Below, piece after piece: positions 17,375 to 34,707 of a stretch of DNA of 64,000 nt. The translations under genes were made by a program, and so were the position numbers. Below the pieces are notes generated by a model that worked only from the letters and a program-made list of their open reading frames with translations, made no database searches and was not told where the DNA came from. Position 1 is the first letter of the stretch, and each line of letters opens with the position of its first letter. The stretch is from Lacipirellula parvula (GTDB lineage Bacteria > Planctomycetota > Planctomycetia > Pirellulales > Lacipirellulaceae): assembly GCF_009177095.1 (NCBI RefSeq), contig NZ_AP021861.1, forward strand, positions 2,338,501 to 2,402,500. Direction: 5' to 3'.

Positions 17375-17461
17375 GGTCGGGTGGCAGAGCGGTTGAATGC
17401 ACCGGTCTTGAAAACCGGCGTACACGAAAGTGTATCGGGGGTTCGAATCCCTCCCCGACCG
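17375..17461 (+). tRNA. tRNA-Ser (anticodon UGA)
   Basis: The acceptor stem GGTCGGG (17375-17381) pairs with CCCGACC (17454-17460), and the discriminator is G. The anticodon stem CCGGT/ACCGG encloses the loop CTTGAAA, giving anticodon TGA. A long variable arm (CGTACAC...GTGTATCG) and a T-arm with the loop TTCGAAT follow, all typical of class II serine tRNAs. CCA is not encoded. Its 3' end is the integration site of the 17-kb element and is repeated at 34652. Confidence 0.95.
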
Positions 17462-17503
17462 CATCGCTGAGTTAGAAAGAGCCTGCAAACGCAGGCTTTT
17501 TCT
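17448..17503 (+). repeat. attL of the tRNA-Ser element
   Basis: 56-bp direct repeat of 34652-34707 with one mismatch (T at 17498 versus C at 34702). It covers the T-arm 3' side, acceptor stem and terminator of tRNA-Ser, so integration regenerates the tRNA. Confidence 0.92.
17475..17503 (+). terminator. Terminator of tRNA-Ser
   Basis: A stem AGCCTGC/GCAGGCT with an AAAC loop (17480-17497) is followed by TTTTCT. It lies 18 bp after the tRNA and is included in the direct repeat, so a second copy stands at 34684-34707. Confidence 0.8.
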
Positions 17504-17620
17504 ATTTTCCCCGGGGATTTCAACAAACGGCTGTTTCGCTGTACCTCGGTTTGCAACTCGCTGCATGAGTTTGCAGCGCCGCATTGGGCGCCGCCTCTCA
17601 GGGCGACTTTATCTTTTAGC

Positions 17621-18865
17621 CTACGCTACATCTTTCACTTGCTTTGGCTCAGCACCGGCGGCGAAGTGGTGCGGCTCAACGGTTAGGTAGTGTTCGCGCG
17701 CCACTTCCTTGCTGTTGCCCATCCACTTGCAGACGACGTGCGAAGGAAAGCGGTCTTCAAGCTCAGTCTGTCGGGTGGCGCGCATCGAATGCCAGAGGCG
17801 TGGCCACACTTCCAAGCCGGCTCGCTTAATCGCAGTTTTCAGCGGGTCGCGGACGGAACCGCCACCGGTCCAGAATCGAGCCATCTGCAACACGGCTTTC
17901 TTGCCAGCGGGCGCGACGGCTTTAAGCTCTGACAAAACTTTCGCCAGTTCGGGGAAAAGTGGGATTTCGCGCGTCTCGTGGCCCTCGTAGCGTTGCGTCT
18001 TGGGCGAGTGGACTAGGATTTTCTTGCCTTCCCAGTTGATGTGCGACCACTCCAGCATGACGACTTCGGAAGGCACGCGCAGCCCGCCCCAGCGAGAGAG
18101 GGCGAACATTACTTTCCATTCAGCCGATGGAAGATGCGCCATCACCTTCAGGGCGTCGGCTTCGCTGACGAATGCTCGGCGCTTGGTGGCGATGTTGCTC
18201 TTGTTGATCTTGGCGAACGGATTGCGGTCGATGATTCGTAGGTCCATCGCGTGATTGAAAAATCGGGATGCGATCGACACACGCTTGCGGGCGGTGGCTT
18301 CCGCCAGCGGCGTTCGCTCGCGAAGCATCGTCTTCGGTCCACACTTTTTGACCGGCGCGCCGCCTTTAGTCAGCAAGTAGGTATAGAAGCCGGTGGCGTG
18401 GCCGCCGGTAATTTCGGTGAGGGGTCGGTCCGCCCCGAAGTGGTCGCACAGGTTTTCGCGCGTTGCACGCTCTAAGCGGATTGTATCGGCGACCAGCCGA
18501 CCGACTTTGACCAGTTCTTCGCGCTCAGCAATATATGCGTCGATGAACGAGCCCAGAGCGTTGGCCTTAGCTTCCGCTTCGGCCATTCGCTGTTCTTCCT
18601 CTTCCTTCCGTTTCTCGGCGTCGATCAATCCGACGCCGGCGAGCTTGTCGCGAAGGGTAGGGGGGATGGTCGCCAGCCAAGTGGCGGTCGCGCGTGGGAT
18701 GCCTGAACTTGCCACTTGGCACCCGACGAGCGTCTCGACGTGGCCGGCGACCGTTTTGGCGGTGGCCATGTCCATCTTTCCCAGCCGCAGCGATTTGCGA
18801 GCCCGGTAGGCGTCGTAGAACGTGATGCGACGGTAGCCGCCTGAGTAGCTTGTGATACCAGCCAT
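17621..18865 (-). CDS. int: Tyrosine recombinase / integrase
   Basis: This is a 414-residue protein. The N-terminal half holds an Arm/SAM-like DNA-binding region (FIDAYIAEREELVKVGR). The catalytic C-terminal half has Arg in SRWGGLRVPSEVVMLEW, a beta-hairpin Lys (VHSPKTQRYEGHETR), the HSMRATRQTEL box and the nucleophile in EVAREHYLTV. It integrates and excises circular DNA at tRNA-Ser. It lies 118 bp from attL and reads toward it, the usual arrangement for tRNA-targeting integrases. Confidence 0.93.
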   Translation of the reverse strand: MAGITSYSGGYRRITFYDAYRARKSLRLGKMDMATAKTVAGHVETLVGCQVASSGIPRATATWLATIPPTLRDKLAGVGLIDAEKRKEEEEQRMAEAEAKANALGSFIDAYIAEREELVKVGRLVADTIRLERATRENLCDHFGADRPLTEITGGHATGFYTYLLTKGGAPVKKCGPKTMLRERTPLAEATARKRVSIASRFFNHAMDLRIIDRNPFAKINKSNIATKRRAFVSEADALKVMAHLPSAEWKVMFALSRWGGLRVPSEVVMLEWSHINWEGKKILVHSPKTQRYEGHETREIPLFPELAKVLSELKAVAPAGKKAVLQMARFWTGGGSVRDPLKTAIKRAGLEVWPRLWHSMRATRQTELEDRFPSHVVCKWMGNSKEVAREHYLTVEPHHFAAGAEPKQVKDVA

Positions 18866-19066
18866 TCGAGAAACTCCAGGGAGGGTAGGGGACGAATGGG
18901 GCGCCAGGATACCGTTACCGGCATTGGGCGCCTACTGGTCCCCTTTCCCTAATCGGCCCGTTCTCAATCACCAGCTTGGGCTAACTGGGGAGAGTTTGAC
19001 GGATTTCCCGCCGCCGGCGTCGATTCTGTCCCTTCGATCGGTTCGGGCGTTACGATTGGCGGGTTA

Positions 19067-19097
<31 letters not shown>

Positions 19098-19104
19098 ACT
19101 GCGA

Positions 19105-19305
19105 CTAAGCCGACTGCCAATCGGCTGGCAGCCGACTCGCTAGCCACGCCTGCCAATCGGCGGCGTCGATCAAGAGAGAGTTGCCAAACTTCACGGTTGG
19201 CAATTCGCGGTGCTGAACCGCGCGGTCGAATGCTTGCCGTTCTTCGCCGAGCAAATCGCCTTGAAGGTCTTGGATGGTAAGCCAATGCTTCGATGGTTGG
19301 TTCAT
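19105..19305 (-). CDS. Small excisionase-like DNA-binding protein
   Basis: This is a 66-residue protein starting MNQPSKHWLTIQDLQGDL. GGAAAGGG lies upstream of the ATG at 19303-19305. It shares a layout with its upstream neighbour (19337-19570): a short N-terminal W-L/T-I-x-D-L helix region, a central acidic helix, then ELPTVKFGNSLLIDAADWQAW, similar to the wing and C-terminal helix of HTH_17/excisionase proteins. Position next to the integrase fits a recombination directionality factor. Sequence evidence alone is weak. Confidence 0.55.
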   Translation of the reverse strand: MNQPSKHWLTIQDLQGDLLGEERQAFDRAVQHRELPTVKFGNSLLIDAADWQAWLASRLPADWQSA

Positions 19306-19336
19306 AAGTCGGCCCTTTCCAGTTAGTTGAACTTGG

Positions 19337-19570
19337 TTACGCTTCCAACGGCTTGGCGGATGCTTCGATTGATGCCCGCCACGCCAACCAGTCTTCGTGG
19401 TCGAGCCAATACTCACTGCCCACGCGCGTGATGGGGATTTCCTTGAAGCGAATCGCGTCGCGCAGCTGGCGGTAATCTTCCGCGGCAAGCAGCTTCCGAA
19501 CCGTGGCGAGCGTGAACCAACCGAGCGACGTGAAATTCACGCCGCCGCTTTGAGGCTTTGAGTCGCCCAT
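19337..19570 (-). CDS. Small excisionase-like protein
   Basis: This is a 77-residue protein. I chose the ATG at 19568-19570 because longer reading upstream overlaps the next gene and looks non-coding. The segment GWFTLATVRKLLAAEDY then IPITRVGSEYWLDHEDWLAW parallels the 66-residue neighbour downstream, so the two may be diverged paralogs. Its start overlaps the end of the 98-residue gene by 34 bp, indicating translational coupling. A regulator of integration or early transcription is plausible. Confidence 0.55.
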   Translation of the reverse strand: MGDSKPQSGGVNFTSLGWFTLATVRKLLAAEDYRQLRDAIRFKEIPITRVGSEYWLDHEDWLAWRASIEASAKPLEA

Positions 19571-19833
19571 TGCACCACCCCTTCCACAGCTTCGCGGTAG
19601 ATGGCCAGAGACACGCGGTCGACGCCTTCGAGGCGTAGGGCTTCTATGAACCCGTCGACCATGCTCGGCACGTCTGGCAGCGAAGGCTCGCCGCAGAGGC
19701 GTTCGAAGTCGTCGAGCGCCAACGCCTCCATTCGGGCGATGAGCGTTGGCGGGGTATGGCGTCGCTCGAATTGCTGGCGAGCTTCGCGCCACTGGGTCTG
19801 CGGCGTGAAGCCGCGGAGCTTGCAGATTTCCAT
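19537..19833 (-). CDS. Element hypothetical protein (98 aa)
   Basis: This 98-residue protein starts MEICKLRGFTPQTQ. It is rich in helices with an acidic patch (ALALDDFERLCGEPS) and a second helix pair (DRVSLAIYREAVEGVVQW). I do not recognise a family. It is the first gene of a three-gene leftward set leading to the integrase. A frameshifted copy with about 85 percent nucleotide similarity by eye stands outside the right att site (34925-35145), which shows the gene belongs to a family of related elements. Confidence 0.6.
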   Translation of the reverse strand: MEICKLRGFTPQTQWREARQQFERRHTPPTLIARMEALALDDFERLCGEPSLPDVPSMVDGFIEALRLEGVDRVSLAIYREAVEGVVQWATQSLKAAA

Positions 19834-19941
19834 TTCCGACTCGCTGGTGTGATATTCGGGTCACCCAAACGGGCCCAATATACGCGCATCGGAACAGAGC
19901 GGAATACCAAGTCTTGTAGATGGTTAGGCGGGGAGGCGGCG

Positions 19942-19985
19942 CCCATTGGGTGGCGGGCGCCCATGGGTAACGGGGCCCGATGGGT
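19942..19985. promoter_or_regulatory. Three tandem CCCATGGGT-like palindromes
   Basis: CCCATTGGGT (19942-19951), CCCATGGGT (19960-19968) and CCCGATGGGT (19976-19985) are spaced 16-18 bp apart, 110-150 bp upstream of the leftward 98-residue gene. Tandem near-palindromes upstream of an element's early genes suggest operator sites for a repressor or excisionase. The binding protein is not known. Confidence 0.5.
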
Positions 19986-20046
19986 GGACTAGGCAAACCT
20001 CTACCGAACCGGCATCCGTTTGCGTCCGGTAGTTCGACCGCCACCG

Positions 20047-20262
20047 CTACCCACTCACTGCGAGCGCGCGACTACTACCGTCTGACACTTTCGGAAACTG
20101 GCTTCCGCAATTGTCGCATCGCCCGGTGGCGTGGCATACGCGGCAAACCCGACGCGCATCGATTGGCTCCCCATCCCTCGCAGGATGCGAACCTACTCCC
20201 TCGCAAACGGAACAGCGGCCCGAGTTATTGCAAGTCTTGCAAGCATTGGATGGTGTCACCAT
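20047..20262 (-). CDS. Small zinc-ribbon-like CxxC protein
   Basis: This is a 71-residue protein with four Cys pairs: CKTCNNSGRCSVC then CRVCHATGRCDNC. This C-x2-C-x4-C-x2-C spacing resembles the DnaJ Cys-rich zinc module and phage zinc-ribbon proteins. A good ribosome-binding site (GGAGG) lies 7 nt before the ATG at 20262. It probably binds two zinc ions. A role in nucleic-acid or protein binding is inference. Confidence 0.65.
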   Translation of the reverse strand: MVTPSNACKTCNNSGRCSVCEGVGSHPARDGEPIDARRVCRVCHATGRCDNCGSQFPKVSDGSSRALAVSG

Positions 20263-20949
20263 CGATTGCCTCCGTTGAGCGGAATTCTTGGCAATCCAAG
20301 CATACGCTCTAATACGGAGTGCTTGCCATGGAAATACAGGCGATTACCCATGATCATTTTACTCAAATTACCTCTGAGGCCGTCCGTGGGGAACTTGAGA
20401 TAGGTTGCTTGGTATGCGACGGTAAATCGGCAAGTCGCCGGCCGCGTATTTTTTAGCACTGAACGCGCGTTTCGATTCAGCGTTGTACGTCTCGTGGGGT
20501 GCAAGTGGAAAGTCAACCGGCCGCGTCGAAAGTTCGATCGATTCGATGACGCGGAAATCGCATTGCATGCAGAAATAGATCGCATCATCAGTCTCAAAGC
20601 GATTTCGCTCCGAGATGTAGCGGTCGGCCTTAGATATGGGCGAGGCCGACCGGGGAATTGCAGCGCTAAGATCGCGACCAAGTAACCTGTACGCCGGGCG
20701 CGGATTGATGACCTAAAAGGTTTTATTCTTCCGTTGTCAGGTTTTACAGAAATTGTGTTACAATCGCGGTTCTTGGCATTCCGTCAAAGTTGAACGTCGG
20801 TAATCTGGTCGCACTCGCAGTGGTCCTTGCCGAAGCCGCCTTGCGCGGCCTGCGGTTCCTGCGAGTTGCTCAGGGCATCGCGCGAGTTGCGGCTCGCGCG
20901 ATGCTTATTCAAAAGGAACGCTGCCACCAAGAATTGCAGGGCAGGTGGA
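20263..20949. other. Long gap with only weak coding signals
   Basis: About 690 bp without a convincing gene. A minus-strand frame at 20368-20568 (MQCDFRVIESIEL, preceded in frame by DDAIYFC) reads protein-like but lacks a start with a ribosome-binding site, so it may be a decayed gene. TTTTACAG and TTACAAT at 20740-20765 could be promoter parts for the rightward gene at 20950, but their spacing is poor. Confidence 0.4.
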
Positions 20950-21183
20950 ATGGACTCGTCAGTAGTAGGTGGGAGTAACGCCGAGGCTCACACCGCGAAG
21001 GTCGATGGCCGAAAGATCAATTGCGAAACGCTTGCGGACGCCATCGCCTTGAAGATCGCAGAACACGCCGCCACGGTTGGCAAGCTGGACCTGCTTGAGG
21101 AACTAACGCCTGAGAATCTTAGCAAGATTGCTCGGAAATACGGCTTCGAAGCCATCGCCGATGCGATTGAAGCTTTGCAGTAG
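20950..21183 (+). CDS. Element hypothetical protein (77 aa)
   Basis: This is a 77-residue protein starting MDSSVVGGSNAEAHTAKVDG. AGGTGG lies just upstream. The body is helical and ends KIARKYGFEAIADAIEALQ. It has a diverged, frameshifted copy at 21652. Not recognised as a known family; the small acidic helical form could be a TA antitoxin or structural cofactor, but nothing decides it. It is one of the few rightward genes of the element. Confidence 0.55.
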   Translation: MDSSVVGGSNAEAHTAKVDGRKINCETLADAIALKIAEHAATVGKLDLLEELTPENLSKIARKYGFEAIADAIEALQ

Positions 21184-21338
21184 CTGCGTACTTAATCGCG
21201 CGTCGCAGGAGACCGTCGCAAGTTTCTAGGGGACTGGCGACGGTCTTTTATGCAGTCTTTGCTATCTCTAGCGGAACTGCTACAAGTTCAGCCAGTGGTA
21301 CGTCGGATTATGCAGCGGCCGTTCTCTACTTCGCATCA

Positions 21339-21551
21339 ATGCCAATCTATGACCAGTTGCCAAACGTCTTCGCTTGGGAACAGGCAGGACAGTGGTATTT
21401 CGTACAAGATCGAACTGCCGCCCCGCCTGAAGCCGTAGAGGCTCGCTGTTTCAATGACGGAACAGCGAATGTACTTTCCATTAATCGAGGCACGAGCGGC
21501 GTCTTCGTGCGCGACGCCATGCCTTGGAACGGCCGGGCGAGGGGTCAGTAG
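21339..21551 (+). CDS. Possible small hypothetical protein
   Basis: This 70-residue frame begins MPIYDQLPNVFAWEQAGQWYFVQD. Its composition (aromatic, acidic) is protein-like. No ribosome-binding site is evident before the ATG and no homolog is visible in the window. It lies between the 77-residue gene and its decayed duplicate, and may be a fragment. Confidence 0.35.
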   Translation: MPIYDQLPNVFAWEQAGQWYFVQDRTAAPPEAVEARCFNDGTANVLSINRGTSGVFVRDAMPWNGRARGQ

Positions 21552-21651
21552 AATACTGCAATCTTCCGCCACAAATTGCAGTCGCCGGCGATAATTGTTT
21601 ACTTATACTCCCGCAGTAGCTACTTTCCCGTAACTATTGCAGGCAGACGAG

Positions 21652-21891
21652 ATGTCGTCATCAGTCATTGGGCGAAGAAGCGCGGAACCGCACACCGTCG
21701 AAGTCGATGGGCGATTAATTCAATGTGCGACTTTAGCCGACGCATTCGCGATCAAGGTGGCTGAGCATATCGCAACGGCACGATTTGCTGGGCTCGACGA
21801 TCGGGGGGCCTTAGCGCCTAGCCCATGTATCGCGCAAGTACGGCTTCGACGCAATTGCTGATGCAATCGCGATCTACAACGCCACCACCAT
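21652..21891 (+). pseudogene. Frameshifted duplicate of the 77-aa gene
   Basis: It begins MSSSVIGRRSAEPHTVEVDG and aligns with the protein at 20950 (MDSSVVGGSNAEAHTAKVDG), continuing through TLADAFAIKVAEHIATA. After 21805 the frame is lost. The downstream homologous segment SRKYGFDAIADAIAIY appears in another frame. A 3' deletion/insertion around 21810-21825 explains the break. The remnant overlaps the end of the minus-strand gene at 21874. Confidence 0.6.
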
Positions 21892-22335
21892 CCCCAACAA
21901 CGCGGCGACGACGCTCATTCCCACCAATGCCGACCGCAGCGTGAACTGGCGGCCGATGCGAATCGCCGCGACGGCGGCGAGGGCGAAGACGAGTGCGGCG
22001 TACCAATGTGGGAAGTAGACCCCATAGCTCAGACGGCCGAATGCTCCGCTGGCGTGTATGAGGGATAGCAAACGATCATCGATTGTGGACTCAAACGCCA
22101 CTGAGTGTCGCCACAGGAGGTTGTTTGCGGCGAGATACGCAGACGCTTCCTTGTCTAATAGCTGAACGGAAACCGTTCCCGGCATTGATTGCAAATTTAC
22201 TGTGCGTGTGCGATAGACGTACGACGGAACATTGATGAAGTCCCAAGCCGCATGGCTACGCCACCACAACGCCAAGCAGCCCACGCTCGCCGCTAGACAA
22301 ATCGCCGCCAAGGTGTAGCGTAGGGCTTTCAGCAT
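21874..22335 (-). CDS. Planctomycete two-helix membrane protein (MLKA family copy 1)
   Basis: This is a 153-residue protein. The N-terminal helix LKALRYTLAAICLAASVGCLALWW and a C-terminal region with two helices (WYAALVFALAAVAAI, FTLRSALVGMSVVAALLG) frame a polar extracytoplasmic domain of about 70 residues. Two paralogs at 36773 and 37221 share both ends nearly word for word but differ in the middle. The function is unknown. This copy lies inside the tRNA-Ser element, while its sisters lie in the adjoining host region. Confidence 0.7.
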   Translation of the reverse strand: MLKALRYTLAAICLAASVGCLALWWRSHAAWDFINVPSYVYRTRTVNLQSMPGTVSVQLLDKEASAYLAANNLLWRHSVAFESTIDDRLLSLIHASGAFGRLSYGVYFPHWYAALVFALAAVAAIRIGRQFTLRSALVGMSVVAALLGMVVAL

Positions 22336-22401
22336 CGATGGGGCCGGGGTTAGTCCGCCTACAGAACCGGAATTCTCAACCGGCTCATTCTGCCGGCTCG
22401 A

Positions 22402-23895
22402 TTAGCCGCATGCCGCTGCTACTTTGCCGATCAAATCAGCTAGCTCATCGTGTAATTCTGGGGCGGTTGCGAACTCGTCTACGACGAAGCTCGCCAGTTG
22501 CTTCTTGCTGCGTCTAAGTCCATTGTACTCAATGGTGCCTCTTTCGAGATCGATCGCTCCGACCTGACTTACGTCGCAGCTAAACGCGCGAGCCACAATC
22601 GCCTTGGGATAGTAGTACTCGATGCCATTAAGGCTCCATACATGAATGTTATTCTTCGGAACCCCCTGCTTCTCAATTGCTCCTAAGTCGGCACTGTAAA
22701 CTTTATCCAAGACCACGAAAAGTCGCTCACGAAACGGACTTGAGTGAAGATCGCCAAATGCCTGCTTAATGATTTCGATTTTCTTCGGAACTCCGCCATC
22801 CCCGTCCGCCTTGACAATAGCGACGGTTCTGTCGGGAATCGAGAGCGAGAAAACTTTCCGTAAATATGCGATGTCGCAATCACCCTCAACGATTACTATC
22901 GCTGAAGGCAGGAACAAGCTCTCTAAGTGATTGCCGAGCATATTCAGCTGGAGGTCGTGAAGCTCGCTGAATGATTTGATGCCCGCGATGCTGATTGTGT
23001 TATCGAGCTTAGTCACAACGAAGTTGTTGGACAGATTTCGCTTATCTAAAAACAGGTGGGAATGCGTTGCCAAGATGACGTGCTTGAGGTGAGGAAAATT
23101 TGCTTCCAATTCGCCGCTATTGCAAAAGAAATTGCTGAGAATCCCTTGTATGCGAGGGCTAAGGCCTATTTCCGGTTCGTCGATTAGCACCGTATGGAAT
23201 CTTTTGTCGAGCAATACGCCCAGTAGTGTCATGAGAAGTCGTGTTCCACTGCTCGCGTACCGAAGATTCTGGCCATCCATTGCGACGTAGTATGGACTCA
23301 GGAGGTTGCCCGGGTCAGACATGCGAAGTTCAAATTTGTTGCCAAGGAGAGATTCTGCAACCTTGAATAGTTGTTTACGTTCGCTGTCGTTGAGTGACGC
23401 TATTATGCGATCCAAAGTAAGTTCGCAGCCCTCGGTATTCATCCGCGCGGCAACGAAATTATTCTCAAAGTTCCGGTAAATCTGGCGATGCTCATCTCTC
23501 GCAATCGAGCGAGAGTTTAATTGGTCAATTTGCGAAAAGCGGCTGCATCCCAGCAGGTATCCTTCACAACCTACAATCTTCTGTATGTGCTTCAGCAGAA
23601 AACTTTTTCCGCCATTGTTAGGCCCTGAAAGAACGGTCAGACGACCGGCCTTCCTATCTTCCCAAAACGTGTCGACAGGCGGATTGAAAGCTATGGGACT
23701 TACTTCAATGTCTGCGAACGCGATAGAATTGTTCACGAATCGCATGGTGCCAGTTGCGACATTAGTGTGCGGCTCAACTTGCCCGATCGAAGCGAGGTAC
23801 TGGAGATTGTCGAACGTGCATGGTCCGTTCCAAGTTACGCTGCGACCATCAAAGTAATACCAATCATCGCCGCTGCTGTGCATTGGAACCGCCAT
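22402..23895 (-). CDS. GYF-domain OLD-like ATPase/nuclease
   Basis: This is a 497-residue protein. Residues about 10-50 (WYYFDGRSVTWNGPCTFDNLQYL) match a GYF_2/DUF4339 domain. A P-loop ATPase follows with Walker A LSGPNNGGKSFLLKHI, an ABC-like signature region (YASSGTRLLMTLLG) and Walker B VLIDEPEIGLSPRIQG. From about residue 330 a TOPRIM-like half shows IVIVEGDCDIAYLRKV and a later acidic LFVVLDKVYSADL. This is the plan of OLD-family ATP-dependent nucleases, several of which defend against phages. The GYF fusion is unusual. Codon use is more AT-rich than the host genes nearby. It is a likely cargo defence gene, but nuclease activity is inferred. Confidence 0.75.
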   Translation of the reverse strand: MAVPMHSSGDDWYYFDGRSVTWNGPCTFDNLQYLASIGQVEPHTNVATGTMRFVNNSIAFADIEVSPIAFNPPVDTFWEDRKAGRLTVLSGPNNGGKSFLLKHIQKIVGCEGYLLGCSRFSQIDQLNSRSIARDEHRQIYRNFENNFVAARMNTEGCELTLDRIIASLNDSERKQLFKVAESLLGNKFELRMSDPGNLLSPYYVAMDGQNLRYASSGTRLLMTLLGVLLDKRFHTVLIDEPEIGLSPRIQGILSNFFCNSGELEANFPHLKHVILATHSHLFLDKRNLSNNFVVTKLDNTISIAGIKSFSELHDLQLNMLGNHLESLFLPSAIVIVEGDCDIAYLRKVFSLSIPDRTVAIVKADGDGGVPKKIEIIKQAFGDLHSSPFRERLFVVLDKVYSADLGAIEKQGVPKNNIHVWSLNGIEYYYPKAIVARAFSCDVSQVGAIDLERGTIEYNGLRRSKKQLASFVVDEFATAPELHDELADLIGKVAAACG

Positions 23896-23915
23896 GCTCT
23901 GGTTGAGACCTGCGA

Positions 23916-23934
23916 CTTAAAGAATCGCTTTAAG
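23916..23934. promoter_or_regulatory. Palindrome upstream of the OLD-like gene
   Basis: CTTAAAG (23916-23922) and CTTTAAG (23928-23934) form a perfect 7-bp inverted repeat around AATCG, 20-40 bp before the start codon at 23895. Its position suits an operator or start-proximal hairpin. Confidence 0.4.
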
Positions 23935-24032
23935 ATACAATGGCGTCGACTTCTCTGCGAGTGAGTCAATTCAAGCCAGCCCACCAACGCCCCCTCCGTG
24001 GAGCGTTGCGGGCGACTAGCTTCCCGGGGCGA

Positions 24033-26123
24033 TCAGCCTGGGCCGCCGGGGATGCCCCCTTCGAAGGTCATCCTTTCGAGCAGCTTGGCACCGTTCTTGT
24101 CGATGCTCGTCAGCAAATCGACTTCACGGCTTCGGCCGCCGAACTGTTGCGAAGCGAAGCTGGCGTCGAGCGTGGCAATCGCTTTGCCGCCGGAACCGAC
24201 CCCAGCCATTTCGCCGGCGTTAGCAATAGCGGGGTCCAAGCGGTCGCGTTCGAACGTCGCTTGCGCGTCGATCTTGGCTTGAGCTTCCGCCGCTGCGGCC
24301 TTTGCTTCCTCGCGAGACGAAGCCGCAGCAGCCTTCGCGGCGTCAACCTTGGCGCGGGCGGCGTCAATCGCTGCTTGCGCTTCCTTGTTCGCCGCCGAGT
24401 CTGCGGCGTTCATATCGCCGCCAATGATGCCGGCGGCACCGGCGTCGGTCTGGCGACTGCGATTGCGGTCGGCTTCGGCCGCCGCTTCCCGGGCAGCAGA
24501 GCGGGCCGCTGCGGCCCCCGAACGGTTGCCTTTTTCTTCCTCGGCTTTCGCCACTATGTCGGCGTTCTTTGCAGCAACGTCTTTTTCAACTTTGTTGATA
24601 TAGACTTCGTTACTGCCGCCGATATCGATGGTGTATTCGCGAATCTTGAGTGCCATTTTCTGGAACAAAGCAATGACGCGATTCGTTGCTCGCAACGTTG
24701 CCGAAACGATGTCGGTCCAGACGTTAGCGAACCAAACCCCCACGTTGTCGATCGTGGACGCGAAGAATTCGACGGTGTGCGACCAACTGCGCTCGACCAT
24801 TCCCCAGACGGCGTTCACGCCAAGCAGCATTCCGCCCCAGACGGAGTGCCACACGTTCGCGATGCCGGCCAAGGCATTATGCCACGTCTCGCGGATGCCT
24901 TGCGTGCCCTGAAGCCAGAGCAATTGCAGCCCTGCCCAAAGCACTTCGCCCGCTTGCTGAACGTCGCCGGCCATAAGGGCATCGGCCATGCCGCCGAACG
25001 TCGCCGTTACCGTTTCGAATAGCCCCGCCATATAGGTCCGGCCCATCTCGGTCGACGTGGCGAACCAATAGCCGAGCGCGGCCAACGCTGTGACGGCTAG
25101 ACCGATTGGCGAAAGCATCGCGCCGATAACTGCGGAAACTGCTGCGAAGGCGGACACGAAACCGCCGACAGCCATTGATGCTAAGCCGAACGCGGCACCG
25201 ATCGTTAGCAGCGCCGCGGCCCCGCCGACAATCGCCGTGATGGTCCAAAATACTGTCGTGGCAAGCGAAGCGTTTTCGCGAACGAAGTTGGCGACGTAAG
25301 GAACGGCGTCGTTCATCGCTTGCAGGAAACCGGTGAACATCGGCAGCAAGGCTTGACCGAACGGCCGCACCGCTAACGCGATGCCCGCTTTGAACCGGGC
25401 CCAAAGCCCGTCGGCGGTTCCGTTGACCCGCTTCAAGAGCCCGTGGAATCGACCGCCTTCGCTGGTTGCAGACTGGAACGCTTCGGCAACTTCGCCAGCG
25501 GCGATGCCGCCCGATTCCATCCGCTTAGCCAAAGACTTCATGTCTTCGCCGGTGGTGCGGCTGATTTCTTGCAGCGGGTTGAAGCCCGCTTCCACCATCT
25601 GCAAGACTTCCTGCGCCATGAGGCGACCTTTCGCTTGGACCTGCCCAAACGCCAAGGCTAAGCGGCTTAGCTTCTCCGAGTCGCCGGCGGCGACTTCGGC
25701 GAGATTCTGAACGATCGGAATCACCTTGCCGGCTTCAACGCCAAAGCCCAACATGGTTCGCGTTGCTTCCTGCAACGTTTCAACCGAGTAGGGCGAGACG
25801 GTCGCGAACTTTTCGAGACTCGTCAAAATTCGCTTCGTCTCATCGGCTGAGCCCGTGAAGGTTTCGAACTGCGCAGTTGCCGATTGCAGATTGGCGGCGA
25901 GCTTTACCGGCCACAGCAGAGCCGCACCGGCCCCCGCGCCCACCAGCAAACGTTGAATACCGGCGAACCCGCCGCCGGCGGCACCGAACGAACCGACGTT
26001 GCGGAAGCTCGCGCCGATCTTCGCGAGCTTTGATTGCATTTTGTTCAGCCCTTGGCTGACTTTGTCTTGGAGCGAAAGCGTAATTACCGCTTTCCCTGAA
26101 TCGAGTGTTGCCCTACTAGGCAT
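24033..26123 (-). CDS. Phage tail tape measure protein
   Basis: This is a 696-residue protein. The N-terminal 250 residues match the tape-measure N-terminal domain (SLQDKVSQGLNKMQSKLAKIG, FETFTGSADETKRILTSL, GDSEKLSRLALAFGQVQAKG, SRTTGEDMKSLAKRM). The middle has several hydrophobic helices (about 285-360), and the C-terminus is a long Ala/Lys/Glu coiled coil (AAAAARSAAREAAAEADRN). Tape measure proteins set tail length and help DNA entry. At 696 residues it would imply a tail of roughly 100 nm by the usual scaling. It lies downstream of the probable tail chaperone gene. Confidence 0.88.
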   Translation of the reverse strand: MPSRATLDSGKAVITLSLQDKVSQGLNKMQSKLAKIGASFRNVGSFGAAGGGFAGIQRLLVGAGAGAALLWPVKLAANLQSATAQFETFTGSADETKRILTSLEKFATVSPYSVETLQEATRTMLGFGVEAGKVIPIVQNLAEVAAGDSEKLSRLALAFGQVQAKGRLMAQEVLQMVEAGFNPLQEISRTTGEDMKSLAKRMESGGIAAGEVAEAFQSATSEGGRFHGLLKRVNGTADGLWARFKAGIALAVRPFGQALLPMFTGFLQAMNDAVPYVANFVRENASLATTVFWTITAIVGGAAALLTIGAAFGLASMAVGGFVSAFAAVSAVIGAMLSPIGLAVTALAALGYWFATSTEMGRTYMAGLFETVTATFGGMADALMAGDVQQAGEVLWAGLQLLWLQGTQGIRETWHNALAGIANVWHSVWGGMLLGVNAVWGMVERSWSHTVEFFASTIDNVGVWFANVWTDIVSATLRATNRVIALFQKMALKIREYTIDIGGSNEVYINKVEKDVAAKNADIVAKAEEEKGNRSGAAAARSAAREAAAEADRNRSRQTDAGAAGIIGGDMNAADSAANKEAQAAIDAARAKVDAAKAAAASSREEAKAAAAEAQAKIDAQATFERDRLDPAIANAGEMAGVGSGGKAIATLDASFASQQFGGRSREVDLLTSIDKNGAKLLERMTFEGGIPGGPG

Positions 26124-26131
26124 ATATCTAA

Positions 26132-26200
26132 GGGCGTAGCGCCCTTCCCCTTAATGTTTGAAGAATCAGAATGTTGCGGCGCAGGGGGAAGGGCGCGCCC
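26132..26200. repeat. Inverted repeat between chaperone and tape-measure genes
   Basis: The segment 26132-26150 (GGGCGTAGCGCCCTTCCCC) is mirrored at 26184-26200 (GGGGGAAGGGCGCGCCC). The arms could form a long hairpin in the mRNA between the two tail genes, perhaps lowering tape measure expression. Confidence 0.5.
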
Positions 26201-26207
26201 GAAGTGA

Positions 26208-26672
26208 TTAGCCAGCGGCGCTGGCTAGAAGTTGTTTGACGCCGCCTTCAATCGTTCCCGCGATTGCGGCGGAGTATGCCGGCGACCTCATGTCGGCGAG
26301 AATTTCCGCGCCAACGCGCTGCATCGCATCTTGATAGTTTTCGAAGGTCTGGCGGATGAACTCACGCGATGCGAGGGGGGCCCAAAGAGCGAAAGCTTCG
26401 GCTAACGCACGGTGCGCTGCGGCGAAAACGTCGCCGTCGATCGAATCGAAGAACGCGTCTTCAGTGACGCCGAGCGTTTCGGCTTGACGCTTTACGAGCG
26501 TCCACAGAATCTTGCCGAACGTGTAAGGGTCTGCCTGAAGGGCGCAGACCGTTTCGACGTGGTCCGGTGCACCTAGGTCGATGAAGCACCGCGACTTGAT
26601 CGAATGGACCGAACCCATGCTAAGTTGCAGTGACCACTCGTGACCGCCAGCGTTGAACGTATTGCTATACAT
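26208..26672 (-). CDS. Probable tail assembly chaperone
   Basis: This is a 154-residue protein. The start MYSNTFNAGGHEWSLQL is followed by a helical domain with LGVTEDAFFDSIDGD and a C-terminal helix. Size, composition and position just before the tape measure gene fit tail assembly chaperones (lambda gpG-like, or the DUF-type chaperones of Siphoviridae). The core segment resembles those that read wt-LxxGxxWxLxL at the N-terminus. No programmed slippery site was seen. The assignment leans on context. Confidence 0.5.
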   Translation of the reverse strand: MYSNTFNAGGHEWSLQLSMGSVHSIKSRCFIDLGAPDHVETVCALQADPYTFGKILWTLVKRQAETLGVTEDAFFDSIDGDVFAAAHRALAEAFALWAPLASREFIRQTFENYQDAMQRVGAEILADMRSPAYSAAIAGTIEGGVKQLLASAAG

Positions 26673-26762
26673 TGAAAGTTCTCTTGTGGGAGTGAAAGTA
26701 AAACCGAGCGAGCGCCGCGCAAAGGAAACAACAAAACGACGCCCGCCCGGCAGCGAAAAGGG

Positions 26763-26993
26763 TTACGAAGTGAACACGCCGAACAGCGAAGCCGTCGCGG
26801 CAGTAACTTTGAAGGCTTTAAGGTCCAACTGCGTTCCCGCAACTACCGGCATGCCGGTAACGCCAGTGCCATCGCTGTTGAGGATGGAAACTTCGCCGAC
26901 CGTGCCGACGTAAATGAACTCAAGCGAATCCGGTAGCGGCTCGTCGCTAGGCACGATTTGGCGGACATAGCCGCCAGCTTTGAAAGTTGTCAT
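26763..26993 (-). CDS. Small phage structural-like protein
   Basis: This is a 76-residue protein, mostly beta: GGYVRQIVPSDEPLPDSLEFIYVGTVGEVSILNSDG, then VVAGTQLDLKAFKVTAATA. The pattern of an initial P-SD-x-P-L-P segment followed by a gly-rich strand and a V-x-AG-T-x-LPL-like strand resembles small spike-base or tail-adaptor proteins of phages and gene-transfer agents. It lies in the tail cluster. I cannot name its exact family. Confidence 0.5.
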   Translation of the reverse strand: MTTFKAGGYVRQIVPSDEPLPDSLEFIYVGTVGEVSILNSDGTGVTGMPVVAGTQLDLKAFKVTAATASLFGVFTS

Positions 26994-27066
26994 GGTGATT
27001 TTCCCCCTTTAATGGGTTGGTTGGAGCGGCGGGGCGGGGGAAGGACGCCCATCCGCGGAAATGAAA

Positions 27067-27471
27067 CTAGGCCGCCGGCTTAGTGCCGAACGGACGGAAA
27101 CTGCCTTGGCTCATGCGAATGCCTTTGCGGGGATTCGCCTTGGCTTCGCTGGCGTCGACTTGCGTTTTCAACTCGTCGATATCCTGCGACAGCTTTTTAA
27201 GCTCAGCGATTTTCACCGCATCGGCGGCTTGCTGTGCTGCCAGTTGCTTAGCCTTCGCGCCTTTGTCGACTACTGGCGCGGCGGGTTTCGCCGGAGTAGC
27301 TTTCTTAGCCAGGTGACGGTTCACCGCGTCGCGAGGCGTGTCGACGCCGACACGATAATCAGCGACCCGTTCGCCATCGACGAACATGACGCCTTCGTTG
27401 ATGACGCAGCCGCGATTGAACCGCGACGGTCGATTGTCTTGAATCAGATTGAAACGAGTATCCAGAACCAT
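27067..27471 (-). CDS. Element hypothetical protein with coiled-coil end
   Basis: This is a 134-residue protein. An N-terminal compact segment (RFNLIQDNRPSRFNRGCVINEGVMFVDGERV) is followed by an Ala/Lys-rich linker, then a coiled coil (ADAVKIAELKKLSQDIDELKTQVD). It lies between two other tail-cluster hypotheticals on the same strand. It may be a small virion component or scaffold, but no motif decides this. Confidence 0.6.
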   Translation of the reverse strand: MVLDTRFNLIQDNRPSRFNRGCVINEGVMFVDGERVADYRVGVDTPRDAVNRHLAKKATPAKPAAPVVDKGAKAKQLAAQQAADAVKIAELKKLSQDIDELKTQVDASEAKANPRKGIRMSQGSFRPFGTKPAA

Positions 27472-27585
27472 CTTCTCTCTTTCCTTAGTGTTGAAGGCTT
27501 TGCGGCGACGCGGCTCGGAGCTAGAACACCGCGTCGCCGCTCGACCTTTGTCGCCGTCAACGAGACGGCGACGTTCCTATTCCGA

Positions 27586-28377
27586 CTAGCAGCCGGCGAG
27601 CCGTTTCACGACCGTCGCCAGTGCGGCTTCGGCGTCAGCAACACGGGCCTTGCCCGTGGTCACTTCCGCCACCGCGGCTTGGTGTTGCTCGACGGCGGTT
27701 CCGGCCTTCGCGTTCGCGGCTTGCCACTCCGACGATTGCCGAACTAAGTGGCTGAATGCGACCTTGGCCGCTTCGCCGTTGTCCGGGTAAGCCGGTTGCG
27801 ATTCGACGCTTACGCCAGCGGCGTTGAGCTTCACAACCACCGCCTTTTCAGTTTCAACAAGTCCTTCGTCGCAGGTTTCCCGGAATGTCTTCAACTCGCC
27901 AGCCCGAATCGTAGCGCGCTCGACGAACTCGCGTTGCAGCAGCACGGCACGTTGCGACAACGTCAGTTCGCTGCGGTTGATGGCTTCGCGACGAGTCGCC
28001 AGCTGTTCGACGGTCACGGTTTCAGGGTTGTCGCAGCAGTGTGCCTTGGCTTCGGCATACTTCACGGCGTCGGCGTTCCACGCCGAGACGGACTCATTGT
28101 GCCCGGCGTCATCGGCCAAGCAGCCGGGGGTTAGGCCGGCTTCAACGACTGCCATGGCCCGCGGCTTCACGAAGCCGACAATCTGCGGCTTTGCCGTGAC
28201 CGCGACCGGAGCGGTCGGCAGCGGGGCAGCAGCGACGACGGGGCCGGGGTTGGCCGCCAGCGTCTCGGCGGCTTCGGCGCGAGCGGCGGCGCGCTCGGTT
28301 TTATCTGCCAGGAGCGTCGCCTGCTGGGGAGTGAGGGTTGCCGGCGCGACCGGCTTCGGGGGAGACATGACACTCAT
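27586..28377 (-). CDS. Element hypothetical protein, Ala-rich helical
   Basis: This is a 263-residue protein. A Pro/Ala-rich N-terminus (residues 1-75) precedes a largely helical body (VEQLATRREAINRSELTLSQRAVLLQ) ending in an Ala/Val coiled coil and Cys. A Cys pair lies in AKAHCCDNPETV. It is the first gene downstream of the candidate origin on the minus strand. A virion or scaffold role is possible from context only. Confidence 0.6.
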   Translation of the reverse strand: MSVMSPPKPVAPATLTPQQATLLADKTERAAARAEAAETLAANPGPVVAAAPLPTAPVAVTAKPQIVGFVKPRAMAVVEAGLTPGCLADDAGHNESVSAWNADAVKYAEAKAHCCDNPETVTVEQLATRREAINRSELTLSQRAVLLQREFVERATIRAGELKTFRETCDEGLVETEKAVVVKLNAAGVSVESQPAYPDNGEAAKVAFSHLVRQSSEWQAANAKAGTAVEQHQAAVAEVTTGKARVADAEAALATVVKRLAGC

Positions 28378-28882
28378 ACAAAAACCTCTTCTAGAATGGT
28401 GCCGGTGTTCGCCGCGGCGCGCGGGTCGCCAACATGGTCGACCACTGATTTAGTTAGCAATCGTTACAATCGAATCCGCCGGACCAGACCCGGACGGACT
28501 CATATAGGGGGCCTCTTCCGGCTGCCCCGTCGCGTGGGTTCAAAAAGTAGTACCTACCCTATGGCCATTGAGGATTGGCCTGTCTCACTTTGAGGCGCCT
28601 CATTGTGAGACGCCTGCCGTTTTGGCTGGTCGCAAAACGACCAATGTTCAAAATCGATACAATGGTCATAAATCGTGCAGCCAGAATGGCAGAGGCGACG
28701 AGCACTCGGACTCGTGCTCTGATCGCCAGGGGATGAATCACCAGAACTAAGGCGAGGGCACCCGGACCACCCGGACTGCCCTATTACATAGGGCAGGTCC
28801 GTCCGGGTGGTGCCGTGGTCTGCCCAGGCACAAGCCGGACTCAGAGTCCGGGAGGGCAGTCCGGGAGTCCGGGCGGTCACAC
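28378..28882. other. Iteron-rich noncoding region, candidate replication origin
   Basis: About 500 bp without a gene, directly past the end of the primase/helicase gene. At 28760-28880 it holds at least seven copies of a GTCCGGG/CCCGGAC heptamer in both orientations. A large hairpin spans 28766-28811 (arms ACCACCCGGAC and GTCCGGGTGGT plus TGCCCTA/TAGGGCA). Nested palindromes stand at 28583-28610 and a TGGTCG/CGACCA hairpin at 28627-28643. Repeats of this kind next to a replication gene suggest an origin or primase binding site. Confidence 0.5.
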
Positions 28883-30811
28883 TCATGCGACAACCCCCAG
28901 TCGCGTTGAGAGGCGATAGCCGCCGGGCTTTGGTTTGTGGCCGCCAACGCAGTAGTCGGCGTCTTCAAGTTCACCGTTGGCAAGCATTGCCGCCAGCACG
29001 CCGGCTAGACGAACGCTATTGAAAGTCGTCTTCTCTCGAATCGCCGTTTTGCTCAGGGGCTCGTTGCGGCCTGTATCCAGCACTGAACGCACAATGGAGA
29101 TATCCAGGGCCAATCGCTCTGCCTTGGCGTCTTGAGCCGCCTGAAGGGCGTTGGCGCGGGCTTGGTCGGCTTCAACCACGGTCACGGCCCATTGGCGGCC
29201 CCGCAGGTCGTCCCCTTCATCAACCGTGACAGCCCACTGCCCGAAGTGCCCGGCACTGCCGCCCGCCTCCATATGGAGTTCGTGGACGCCGTTGCGGAAC
29301 GCCGACCGGCGGCTTAGCAGCAGCCATTGACGCATCCAAGCGTCAAAACCGGACTGCGACAAATCCTCACGGGTCATCGGCTGGAATTGCTCGGCGCGGC
29401 TCGCCTTGCGGGCATGGTGAACCAATGCCATCGTGCAACCAGTCGCGGTGCCGATCTTGCCGAACGGCTCCAGAATCAACCCCATCGCGAATTGGTTGCT
29501 TGCCTTGTCGGCGTTGCCGCTGGTCAGCGTCGCCAGATAGGCGGGGTCGACGCACAAAAGCTTGATGCCTAACTCTTCAATCGCCTTCTGAATGGCATCT
29601 AGGTGGGCAGTAATCGACAGCTTCGGAAGGTCAAAACCGATGAAGAAATTGTCATCGGAAATCTCGGCTCCGCGAACGCTCGCCATAGTGGCTGCACGGC
29701 GCTGAAGCGATTTGCGGCCTGACTCGCCGGAAATGAACGCAACGGGGCAAGGGCCGGCAACCGGAAAGTGACCAAAGAAAGGCTGGCCGCTCGCCAGCGA
29801 AATCATCATGTCGAGCGCCGTGTTCGTCTTCAGGCCCTTGGTGCGGCCACCAATGACGAAATGTTCGGCTTCAGCGACCAGACCCGGAATCAGGTATTGC
29901 TGCGGCGTTTCGTCTTTCTGAAAATCACTCCATCGAATGAGGCCAAGCGAAAAAGGGCCACCATTGCTGGCGGTGGCGGACAAGACGCCGAACTCGCGCC
30001 CCCGCAACACCTTTTCGTTAGCGCTTTTCCATTTGTGTTCAAGCTCGGTTTGCGACCACGGCGGGTCGCACTTCTCTTCATTGAAGCGATGAATCAGGGC
30101 CCATGCTTCTTCGCCGCTGATTCCGTGACGGAGAATTTCGCAGTTCACGGCGAGCATTCGGTCATGGCCGCGGTCGCCGCTGACGGCATCGGGCATTTTC
30201 TCCAAACGCGCCCAACACGCTTCGGCGTCGGACGCAGGCTCAGCGGTTACGCTCGGTGAGCCGCCAAACGTCTTCGCCCAAAAGGCGTTGAGTTCAGTCG
30301 TCCGCTCGGCGACGGGCTTCAGTTCCAAGCCGGTAACGTTGCCAGTCGTGCAGAAGTAGCGACCGTGCGAATAGGCTTCGACCTTGCCGCCGGCGAAGTC
30401 AACTTTCTTGCCGGTGCCATCGCACGGCAATTCGCCTTTGGCGATCAAGTGAAGCCCAGTGCCGCTTGGCGAAACTTCAACGTAGGTCGCCAGTGAGTTG
30501 ACGATTTCCGTCGCCCACGGTTCGACGACGCCCGTTGCGGCGTTGCGGCACTTATCTAGATCAATACCGACATAAGAGTCATCGGGGCTGAACACGAACC
30601 CGATGCCGTCGAAGCCCGTGGCCTGAGTGGCGGCGTCGTACGTCGACCACGTTGCTTTGTTCGTGGTCGAGGCTTTGCGGCCGTTTGGTTGGTAGGGAAC
30701 CTTCGTCGGCTTGTCGCCGCCGCGCGATTCGAGTTTCCAGTTGACCCACTGCTTGCGGCTTTGCAGTTCAGCGGGGATCGTATCAGCCAGTGATGGTTTC
30801 ACAGCAATCAT
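28883..30811 (-). CDS. Primase-polymerase / RepA-like helicase
   Basis: This is a 642-residue protein. I chose the ATG at 30809-30811 because AAGGAAGAAAG precedes it and the upstream in-frame extension overlaps another gene and looks non-coding. The N-terminal part has primase-polymerase features: YVGIDLDKCRN (metal-binding DxD-like) and SPSGTGLHLIAKG (SxG-type and His motif). A P-loop ATPase follows with GGRTKGLKTNTALDMM (Walker A variant), CPVAFISGESG and a Walker B LLCVDPAYLA, like RepA/AAA_25 helicases. A winged-helix-like tail closes it. It probably starts replication of the excised element from the adjacent origin-like region. Confidence 0.8.
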   Translation of the reverse strand: MIAVKPSLADTIPAELQSRKQWVNWKLESRGGDKPTKVPYQPNGRKASTTNKATWSTYDAATQATGFDGIGFVFSPDDSYVGIDLDKCRNAATGVVEPWATEIVNSLATYVEVSPSGTGLHLIAKGELPCDGTGKKVDFAGGKVEAYSHGRYFCTTGNVTGLELKPVAERTTELNAFWAKTFGGSPSVTAEPASDAEACWARLEKMPDAVSGDRGHDRMLAVNCEILRHGISGEEAWALIHRFNEEKCDPPWSQTELEHKWKSANEKVLRGREFGVLSATASNGGPFSLGLIRWSDFQKDETPQQYLIPGLVAEAEHFVIGGRTKGLKTNTALDMMISLASGQPFFGHFPVAGPCPVAFISGESGRKSLQRRAATMASVRGAEISDDNFFIGFDLPKLSITAHLDAIQKAIEELGIKLLCVDPAYLATLTSGNADKASNQFAMGLILEPFGKIGTATGCTMALVHHARKASRAEQFQPMTREDLSQSGFDAWMRQWLLLSRRSAFRNGVHELHMEAGGSAGHFGQWAVTVDEGDDLRGRQWAVTVVEADQARANALQAAQDAKAERLALDISIVRSVLDTGRNEPLSKTAIREKTTFNSVRLAGVLAAMLANGELEDADYCVGGHKPKPGGYRLSTRLGVVA

Positions 30812-31208
30812 TTCTTTCTTCCTTTGTTGACTTTCCGGCCGAGCGGCCACATTCCTTGGCGAAAGGCGCGAGCCCCTTGCCGACCGCCATAAGTTCGAAC
30901 GCACGTTGCTGCGTGAAGACGCCGCGGACGATGCAGGTTTGGGCTTGGTCGCCGAGCGTTGAGCCTTCGAACGTGATGCAAAGCAACACAACGTCTTGGC
31001 CGTCGATGGTCGACTTGGCTAGGAATTGCGTTTCGCGGCATTCGTCTAAGGGTGCAGCGCTGCGGCGAATCGAATCGACGGCGATGCGTCGTCGGTCGCG
31101 AAACTTGTCGTCACCCGGGCATACGCCGAGCCGAGCTAAGTCGGCGTCTGCGGTGCGCGAGACGACAAGCTGCGTCGTTGCGGCGGTTAAGGTTGGTAGG
31201 GTGGTCAT
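30783..31208 (-). CDS. Element hypothetical protein upstream of primase
   Basis: This is a 141-residue protein beginning MTTLPTLTAATTQLVVSR. It reads as a mixed alpha/beta fold with a Cys in TCIVRGVFTQQRAFELM. Its end overlaps the start of the primase gene by 29 bp, so the two are translationally coupled. This coupling suggests a replication accessory role, but I recognise no family. Confidence 0.6.
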   Translation of the reverse strand: MTTLPTLTAATTQLVVSRTADADLARLGVCPGDDKFRDRRRIAVDSIRRSAAPLDECRETQFLAKSTIDGQDVVLLCITFEGSTLGDQAQTCIVRGVFTQQRAFELMAVGKGLAPFAKECGRSAGKSTKEERNDCCETITG

Positions 31209-31210
31209 TT

Positions 31211-31399
31211 CTATCTCATGTCTAAAAGTTCAACGTGGTCGGCGACTCGAATTGGCCAGTACATTTGGTATTGGGCACATTCAATCCAGTCGCTGCCGTC
31301 TTTCTCATCGCACTGAATTAGGAACGACTCATCCCATGCGTTGAAAATTTGCACTTCGTAGTCGTCGATAAGTTCAGCTTCGGTAACAATGAACAACAT
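31211..31399 (-). CDS. Small acidic element protein
   Basis: This is a 62-residue protein from the ATG at 31397-31399, preceded by a purine-rich GGGGAAAAA; a GTG 11 codons upstream is an alternative. The product is acidic and aromatic (MLFIVTEAELIDDYEVQIF, KDGSDWIECAQYQMYW). It lies 2 bp upstream of the 141-residue gene in the replication operon. Its function is unknown. Confidence 0.5.
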   Translation of the reverse strand: MLFIVTEAELIDDYEVQIFNAWDESFLIQCDEKDGSDWIECAQYQMYWPIRVADHVELLDMR

Positions 31400-31473
31400 C
31401 TGGTTTTTCCCCGCAGCAGCAGGGAAGGGCACTTGCTCACGGTTGTGTCTTTCTTGGGTAAGAGTTAAGTGGT

Positions 31474-31880: not shown

Positions 31881-31962
31881 TCGTGACCTGCCTTTCTTGG
31901 TTGGGGATGGTGGTGACGGAAGGAGAGATATTTAGTACCGGCGTCACGAACTGAGCGCGCAT

Positions 31963-31999
31963 AAAAAAACGCAACCCCCGGTAGTTCCAGGGGTTGCGT
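31963..31999 (-). terminator. Terminator before the HTH pair
   Basis: A 10-bp stem (31969-31978 with 31990-31999; arm ACGCAACCCC) is followed on the minus strand by TTTTTTT. It ends transcription of the 347-residue gene (stop at 32032) before the HTH pair. Confidence 0.85.
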
Positions 32000-33331: not shown

Positions 33332-33336
33332 TGCGC

Positions 33337-34651: not shown

Positions 34652-34707
34652 TCCCTCCCCGACCGCATCGCTGAGTTAGAAAGAGCCTGCAAACGCAGGC
34701 TCTTTCT
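34652..34707 (+). repeat. attR of the tRNA-Ser element
   Basis: Direct repeat of 17448-17503 (55/56 identical). It ends the 17.2-kb element and contains only the 3' part of the tRNA plus its terminator, so no second complete tRNA is made. Confidence 0.92.

Follow-up and report, generated by a model that had tools for sequence, protein, structure and literature searches.

A predicted GYF_2–ABC ATPase–TOPRIM-like protein of Lacipirellula parvula: a rare OLD-like type with an altered acidic set and a plausible single-gene phage defence

ATPase-TOPRIM proteins of the OLD type form a recurring core of phage-defence systems, and how their stand-alone members recognize phages is mostly unknown. The locus described here, found in a 64,000-nucleotide stretch of Lacipirellula parvula DNA (hereafter the window), raises the question of what a solitary protein of this kind may do when it is preceded by a predicted GYF_2 domain and when its TOPRIM-like part has an altered acidic set. 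An extra recognizable protein-binding domain offers a direct handle on trigger specificity (the GYF part can be removed or swapped), and an acidic set that is altered yet fully conserved lets one ask by experiment if a TOPRIM nuclease still functions once a metal ligand has moved.

The gene lies exactly where the preliminary description had placed it (22402-23895, minus strand); it is an intact open reading frame (ORF) of 497 codons with an ATG start at 23895 and zero internal stops. Domain scans and the genes of the surrounding element bear out the proposed order of GYF_2, ABC ATPase and TOPRIM-like parts in a single gene of an integrase-bearing element (Table 1). PADLOC ranked its models of AriA, the retron ATPase-TOPRIM, the fused AriAB and Old highest for the protein, each with a partial match, and the best NCBIfam match was retron_eff_Eco8, at 39.3 bits versus a cut-off of 250. 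An AlphaFold2 (AF2) model built on a five-sequence alignment had a mean pLDDT of 63.9. In its own 6.9-Mb genome the only match of the gene product at E≤1e-3 was itself. We regard the protein as a rare ATPase–nuclease-like type and, by prediction, a plausible one-gene phage defence.

Table 1. Coordinates in the window of the gene, its parts and the element that carries it
Feature	Coordinates	Strand	Basis
GYF_2–ABC ATPase–TOPRIM-like gene, 497 aa	22402..23895	-	intact ORF; Pfam/PADLOC/NCBIfam scans
GYF_2-type domain, residues 10-53 (W12, Y13, Y14, G24-P25, L31, G38)	23737..23868	-	homology to GYF_2 proteins, HMM, hhalign; AF2 confidence low
ABC-type ATPase domain, residues about 65-325	22921..23703	-	Pfam, AF2 model, structural matches
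Walker A GPNNGGKS, residues 91-98	23602..23625	-	sequence and conservation
Walker B, residues 235-240 (D239, E240)	23176..23193	-	conservation
TOPRIM-like domain, residues about 330-470	22486..22908	-	Pfam, family profile, alignment
TOPRIM motif 1, residues 334-341 (E337, D341)	22873..22896	-	conservation
Additional invariant Asp (D366) that follows TOPRIM strand 2	22798..22800	-	conservation
D397-K-V399, DxD motif without second Asp	22699..22707	-	conservation
NGIEYYYP motif, residues 423-430 (E426)	22606..22629	-	conservation
Small palindrome before start, 7-nt arms, 5-nt loop	23916..23934	.	chance level
tRNA-Ser(tga), integration target	17375..17462	+	tRNA detection, Rfam
Left attachment repeat, overlaps 3' end of tRNA-Ser	17448..17497	.	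50-bp perfect match to 34652-34701
Right attachment repeat	34652..34701	.	50-bp perfect match to 17448-17497
Tyrosine integrase of element	17621..18865	-	PHROG integrase 1.3e-27
153-aa protein, downstream neighbour; hydrophobic stretches at both ends, without family match	21874..22335	-	
Tail tape-measure protein, upstream neighbour	24033..26123	-	Pfam TMP_3 1.1e-22; PHROG 1.4e-34
Phage-type primase of element	28883..30991	-	PHROG DNA primase 5.2e-49

The element comprises 17254 bp (17448-34701) bounded by a 50-bp perfect repeat at the tRNA-Ser, and it also holds an excisionase-like protein and a small tail-fibre-like protein. The gene is placed between the tape measure and the tyrosine integrase, a usual place for cargo. 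A PHROG scan of 19 ORFs of the element (one 271-aa ORF twice) recognized no capsid, portal or terminase, and the element may therefore be a remnant or a satellite. In the congener G395 the tRNA-Ser is followed, after about 93 bp, by sequence that matches the window from 40409 onward, and in G394, where a further 13.6-17.4 kb or so of the opposite flank are missing, it is followed after about 226 bp by sequence that matches from 41191 onward; thus about 23 kb, including the element, are present here and absent there. An Rfam scan of 15000-42000, with a library that does not cover every retron RNA, returned tRNA only.

The ATPase part is recognized by Pfam AAA_21 at 35.2 bits, above the cut-off of 27. 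Walker A residues G91, N93, N94, G96, K97 and S98 are invariant in the five rows of alignment A4 (the query and four relatives introduced below), D239 and E240 are kept in all eight aligned proteins (six family members and two sister proteins), and the part also includes ATHS at residues 276-279. It was modelled by AF2 mostly with good confidence, and the best structural matches were PtuA (Septu/retron) and AriA (PARIS), at Z 12.6-13.1, the first ten rows superposing 202-228 residues at an rmsd of 3.4-4.0 Å. SMC heads follow at Z 12.4, within one unit and hence in a tie, and the model-based comparison points to an ABC/SMC-type head but allows nothing more specific. A structural search with the model of the Anaerolineae relative (L060) likewise returned ABC- and SMC-type ATPases, including AriA and PtuA. 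Foldseek did list TsOLD and GajA, though it superposed them poorly (TM 0.16-0.20), and neither is in the 50 VIA rows, which excludes nothing.

In the TOPRIM-like part the matches to PF20469 (TOPRIM), 17.8 bits in the query and 23.0 in L060, are both below the cut-off of 23.2. Among solved structures compared by sequence profile, Thermus OLD (6P74) was the best match of the family (7.2e-6, spanning Walker B to the start of TOPRIM), followed by AriA (0.033). Model confidence per block is 35-67 for residues 331-430 and 73-82 for residues 431-470. E337, D341, D397 and E426 are invariant in all six family members; E337 is kept in the two sisters as well, as are E426, Y429 and P430, while position 341 is Glu in both sisters. 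A TOPRIM acidic triad, on which the preliminary description had made its reading depend, is found in part: E337 and D397 are present, and the second Asp of DxD is Val399 in the query and lost in every member, with Val in four and Arg in two of the six, and Pro in the two sisters. All eight proteins share D366, whose equivalent, by eye, is absent at that place from most other ATPase-TOPRIM rows aligned. By motif order, with no superposition behind it, E337/D341/D397/E426 correspond to E377/D381/D431/E480 of Ts OLD and V399 to D433. The Ts OLD catalytic acids E377, D431 and D433 are reported as conserved among Class 1 homologs (PMC7049728). The Class 1 set of Glu plus DxD is thus incomplete in the query (V399), and for this reason we call the protein OLD-like and refrain from placing it among the OLD nucleases of Class 1. 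By eye, the second Asp of DxD is seemingly absent also from the ATPase-TOPRIM proteins L064, L073, L074, L076, L077 and L111 (mostly 459-499 aa; 630 aa in L076), and its loss among such proteins seems to be recurrent and not unique to this family.

The closest likeness among known systems is to OLD Class 1 (P2 Old, Thermus scotoductus OLD). The order of ABC ATPase and TOPRIM (TOPRIM-like in the query) in a single gene is shared, and so is the stand-alone state without a helicase or reverse-transcriptase partner, the neighbours of the query being the tape measure and the 153-aa protein. P2 Old is prophage cargo in a similar integrase-bearing setting, and the Thermus protein is the one matched by profile as given above. 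The ABC-type ATPase features of the class (Walker A, Walker B, H-loop His) are present, preceded here by GYF_2. The query differs in length (497 aa, about 430 of them in the core), in the N-terminal GYF_2 itself, and with respect to Ts OLD in Val at the place of D433, in the extra D366 and in about Gly424 at the position of S478. With PARIS (AriA ATPase and AriB TOPRIM; OLD Class 4) the likeness is that PADLOC places AriA and AriAB near the top for the query as for the five relatives, and that AriA matches the ATPase model (Z 12.6, 21-22% identity). The match to the fused AriAB model, however, reaches 37.4 bits and takes in 187 of the 694 model positions, and the query is one gene without a separate ariB. 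AriB is a DUF4435 protein, and no DUF4435 match at E≤1 was found in the query with Pfam. The retron Eco8-type effector (ATPase-TOPRIM, OLD Class 3) is the best NCBIfam match of the query and four of the five relatives, L062 having none at E≤1e-3, but the scores of 33.6-49.4 bits stand against a cut-off of 250 for a profile of 679 positions, and the PHROG scan of 19 ORFs of the element showed no reverse transcriptase (the retron I-B/Eco8 partner). As to the UvrD-like helicase GajB of Gabija (OLD Class 2), neither of the two adjacent genes had a helicase match, and the element primase, 5 kb from the gene, matches primase and primase/helicase families and not UvrD. IbfA (518 aa) is similarly compact, with ATPase and TOPRIM in one gene on mobile DNA, and HEC-04 has been linked to it as a single-gene ATPase-TOPRIM defence protein; compared by description only, they differ from the query in that the available part of that source does not mention a GYF domain (PMC12111858).

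Two genes in other records touch on the same architecture. In the Vibrio PM2-like phage record L045 (PQ189310.1) an ATPase-TOPRIM gene at 1134-2891 lies beside an integrase, in a parallel cargo position, and matches the query weakly (E 0.09); on a Hoyosella plasmid, the gene L046 2275-3696 encodes a compact ATPase-TOPRIM protein of 473 aa with an intact DxD, near a site-specific integrase.

Activity against phage has been reported for the stand-alone ATPase-TOPRIM proteins P2 Old (PMC10568477), IbfA (PMC12111858) and YbjD (PMC13261556). The gene discussed here is a solitary ATPase-TOPRIM gene on a mobile element, with a patchy spread over phyla and conserved active-site acids, which fits phage exclusion by a stand-alone OLD-like protein. 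We favour, with a little more belief than doubt, an OLD-like effector carried as cargo of a phage-derived element integrated at tRNA-Ser, in which ATPase-gated cleavage would stop the phage and the GYF part would sense or tether. The protein is predicted probably to work like an OLD nuclease and probably to have a phage-excluding role. Against this reading, the five relatives, judged by eye at loci where phage and defence libraries were applied to the gene itself, do not sit in obvious prophages or defence islands. The ABC ATPase part would probably dimerize, bind ATP and restrain the TOPRIM part; upon a phage-related signal the latter would cleave nucleic acid, either DNA or tRNA, and thereby stop the cell or the infecting phage. 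The TOPRIM site probably still binds metal through E337, D341, D397 and E426, and perhaps D366 replaces the lost second Asp of DxD, although this is a guess, as D366 follows TOPRIM strand 2 where the model is poor. The added GYF_2 domain may recognize a peptide in some protein of the phage, the element or the host and so sense the signal or place the enzyme; that it is the sole sensor of the trigger is again a guess.

The alternative that survives best, unlikely in our view but to be taken seriously, is that the TOPRIM part is catalytically dead or has a structural or regulatory role and that the ATPase is the effector. For YbjD the anti-phage phenotype is reported to need the ATPase, with the TOPRIM domain dispensable (PMC13261556), and the nuclease step may accordingly not be what matters. 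Moreover, the second Asp of DxD is lost in the six members and both sisters, so that nuclease activity is not assured, and each active-site mutation tested in P2 Old is reported to have abolished lethality (PMC7049728). In Burkholderia OLD, on the other hand, the second DxD Asp is reported to touch the metal only via water, and cleavage in vitro to proceed with no discernible change when either DxD Asp is substituted singly (PMC6755086). Since one OLD protein tolerates such changes and the other does not, the site may be active, altered or dead. Against the last option stands the invariance of E337, D341, D397 and E426 together with D366 in all six members, at pairwise identities of 33-48%, which is beyond what a dead site would lead one to expect; as key residues of both the ATPase and the TOPRIM parts are invariant across six members from about five phyla, the active site is under selection, and the conservation of the acids argues against its being dead.

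The family has a patchy distribution. The query alone, searched against viral contigs, phages and plasmids (E 1e-3), species genomes, the phylum and relatives, found only itself, and at E≤10 its matches, every one partial and with <60% identity, were to 5 phage and 25 plasmid records. With a profile of distant relatives, at least 594 stretches were found in the species genomes and at least 47 relatives were listed; among these matches four cover nearly the whole core, from Anaerolineae (L060), Nitrospira (L061), Pontibacter (L062) and Mesorhizobium (L063). The profile of these four with the query (A4) retrieved one more member (L135) in the class of the Mesorhizobium genome and two more distant sister proteins (L136, L137) in the class of Pontibacter. 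There are thus at least five full-length relatives, with 33-42% identity, in Chloroflexota, Nitrospirota, Bacteroidota and Pseudomonadota, and further members may exist beyond those listed. For the Nitrospira member, zero plasmid records were found at 1e-10 and zero phage records at 1e-5, and searches of IMG/VR gave weak, partial relatives only (6, 23 and 1 loci).

A role in maintenance of element or host DNA, in replication or in the cell cycle, in the manner of RecF/SMC proteins or of the archaeal Cran1, instead of defence, we consider rather improbable. The tie of the ATPase fold with SMC heads and the surroundings of the relatives, which by eye sit among housekeeping-looking genes, would fit it, and Cran1, an ATPase-nuclease of the OLD family, is described as having a part in the cell cycle (PMC12796447). 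The spread of the family, in contrast, is sparse and unlike that of a conserved maintenance gene. In the phylum of the window the A4 profile found, at E≤1e-15, one of 392 genomes, its own, and full members at E≤1e-20, with seed genomes counted, occur in 1/295 genomes of the Pontibacter class (plus the two sisters), in 2/240 of the Mesorhizobium class, and in 1/199 and 1/111 of two further genome sets. At the Nitrospira locus the family gene is followed by a ribonuclease/barstar pair and preceded by a DDE transposase and a gene with an SNase domain (L061 1146-3576, 5876-6957).

Less credible still is a toxin or addiction cargo that would stabilize the element, the 153-aa protein encoded downstream being its possible partner. 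The two genes adjoin each other in the element, and the Pfam description of AAA_21 includes 'putative AbiEii toxin', but no recurring partner gene was seen by eye beside the five relatives (Pfam on 9 neighbours), and the 153-aa protein resembles two other window proteins outside the element. All three are small and hydrophobic and begin almost alike (21874-22335 in the element, 36773-37234 and 37221-37649 outside it).

The N-terminus matches Pfam GYF_2 (PF14237) at 12.1 bits with the whole protein and at 15.8 bits (E 0.012) with the N-terminus alone, for which it is the only family listed, and at 15.9 bits in a genome-wide search, all below the cut-off of 25.8; as 14 unrelated control genomes searched at E≤1 gave such sub-cut-off matches in 7 cases, this score alone decides nothing. 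The full-length query, searched against the 297 genomes of the class, gave weak matches at E≤1 in 123 of them, which resemble separate ATPase or GYF proteins, some of them matching by the N-terminus only. Besides 30 loci from this search, 14 further places were considered for the N-terminal question; of these, 12 proteins were compared by BLAST (without L041 and L042) and 10 were scanned with Pfam. Nine of the ten proved to be over-cut-off GYF_2 proteins and the tenth (L033) an efflux protein; among proteins outside these ten, the match of L034 is probably due to chance, and L043 has the GYF_2 pattern and was used as an HMM row. The query shares with accepted GYF_2 domains of bacteria the core pattern W-Y-Y ... 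GP ... L ... G, and differs from such proteins in its ATPase, since none of the nine has an ATPase family match, their other parts being TM2, DUF4190, PrsW or none over the cut-off. An HMM of ten GYF_2-type domains scored the query N-terminus at 38.6 bits and the highest of 5000 shuffles at 8.7 bits; the former score is inflated because the ten domains were chosen for their resemblance to the query, and the Pfam score of 15.8 bits is the one independent of that choice; hhalign against query-selected rows likewise gave 95.7% for residues 10-52, with 41% identity over 41 columns. A mis-assigned start, which the preliminary description had named as a danger, does not account for the domain, as Met5 is still upstream of W12 and the domain is retained. 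That the match is due to chance or a wrong start and that the N-terminus is an odd lead-in to the ATPase is hardly believable, even though the second conserved Trp of GYF_2 is missing (Phe53 is at about that place), AF2 confidence for the part is 31-43 per 10-residue block, and relatives lack the domain. In our judgement the GYF domain in residues 10-53 is genuine by homology.

The host genome has four over-cut-off GYF_2 matches, and in planctomycete conflict-system genes GYF domains are reported in pairs, fused to trypsin or transmembrane regions (PMC7159879). As had been supposed, a GYF domain is not a regular part of the proteins of this family. In four relatives (L061, L062, L063, L135) the open frame starts ≤20 residues before the ATPase core, which leaves no room for an N-terminal domain, and L060 has an unrecognized extension of about 55 residues; the N-terminal slot of the six members thus holds a GYF once, an unrecognized extension once and nothing four times. 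As none of the five relatives has a recognizable GYF, the domain looks like an add-on of this member, and as four of six members have no room for it, the core must be able to work without it. By sequence the extension of L060 does not look like a GYF domain (2.1 bits with the GYF HMM; no hhalign match there; no BLAST match to the query N-terminus), but two hints would still allow one: its predicted order E-E-H-E-E, at a block pLDDT of 32-43, and a BLAST alignment with the query that begins at residue 54, twelve residues before that of the next best relatives. A common origin of the two extensions was dropped, as the forks of the family tree are not resolved, the best support (L061 with L062, 90/94) being still unstarred. 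Further GYF-OLD fusions, which the preliminary description led us to look for, were found nowhere else in limited searches of the class genomes, phylum genomes and viral contigs; a DNA pattern for a GYF-to-Walker-A fusion had six matches in viral contigs, none with an open GYF-ATPase frame, and a limited literature search found no such fusion.

A bolder reading, which we hold doubtful, would make of these proteins a compact OLD-like family of about five phyla with a rebuilt TOPRIM metal site (second Asp of DxD lost, an Asp after strand 2 gained) and an exchangeable N-terminal sensor slot (empty, an unrecognized domain of ~55 aa in L060, or GYF_2), here giving one-gene phage exclusion triggered via a proline-peptide-binding domain.

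The gene had been called foreign in base use. Its GC and GC3 (0.491 and 0.556) are indeed lower than those of six other element genes (0.583-0.658 and 0.665-0.746), but it is not unique in this, as three other ORFs are also low: 32032-33075 of the element (0.542/0.526), 47539-49599 and 50781-52067. The palindrome reported before the start exists and is ordinary, since the window has 121 with such arms and loop and one is present in 9% of 200-bp stretches after shuffling; it was rejected as a special signal. Claims of a promoter (0 promoter-like sites versus 2.0 expected), of a terminator (3 versus 2.8 expected) and of folding of the upstream gap (z -1.4) were likewise dropped.

Past the right attachment repeat, the stretch 34702-40400 is also missing from both congeners and contains partial repeats of element sequence (19675-19853 versus 34988-35165), and a secreted-type protein is present in two copies, at 33337-34152 and 35168-35974. 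This stretch is probably an older insertion at the same tRNA-Ser.
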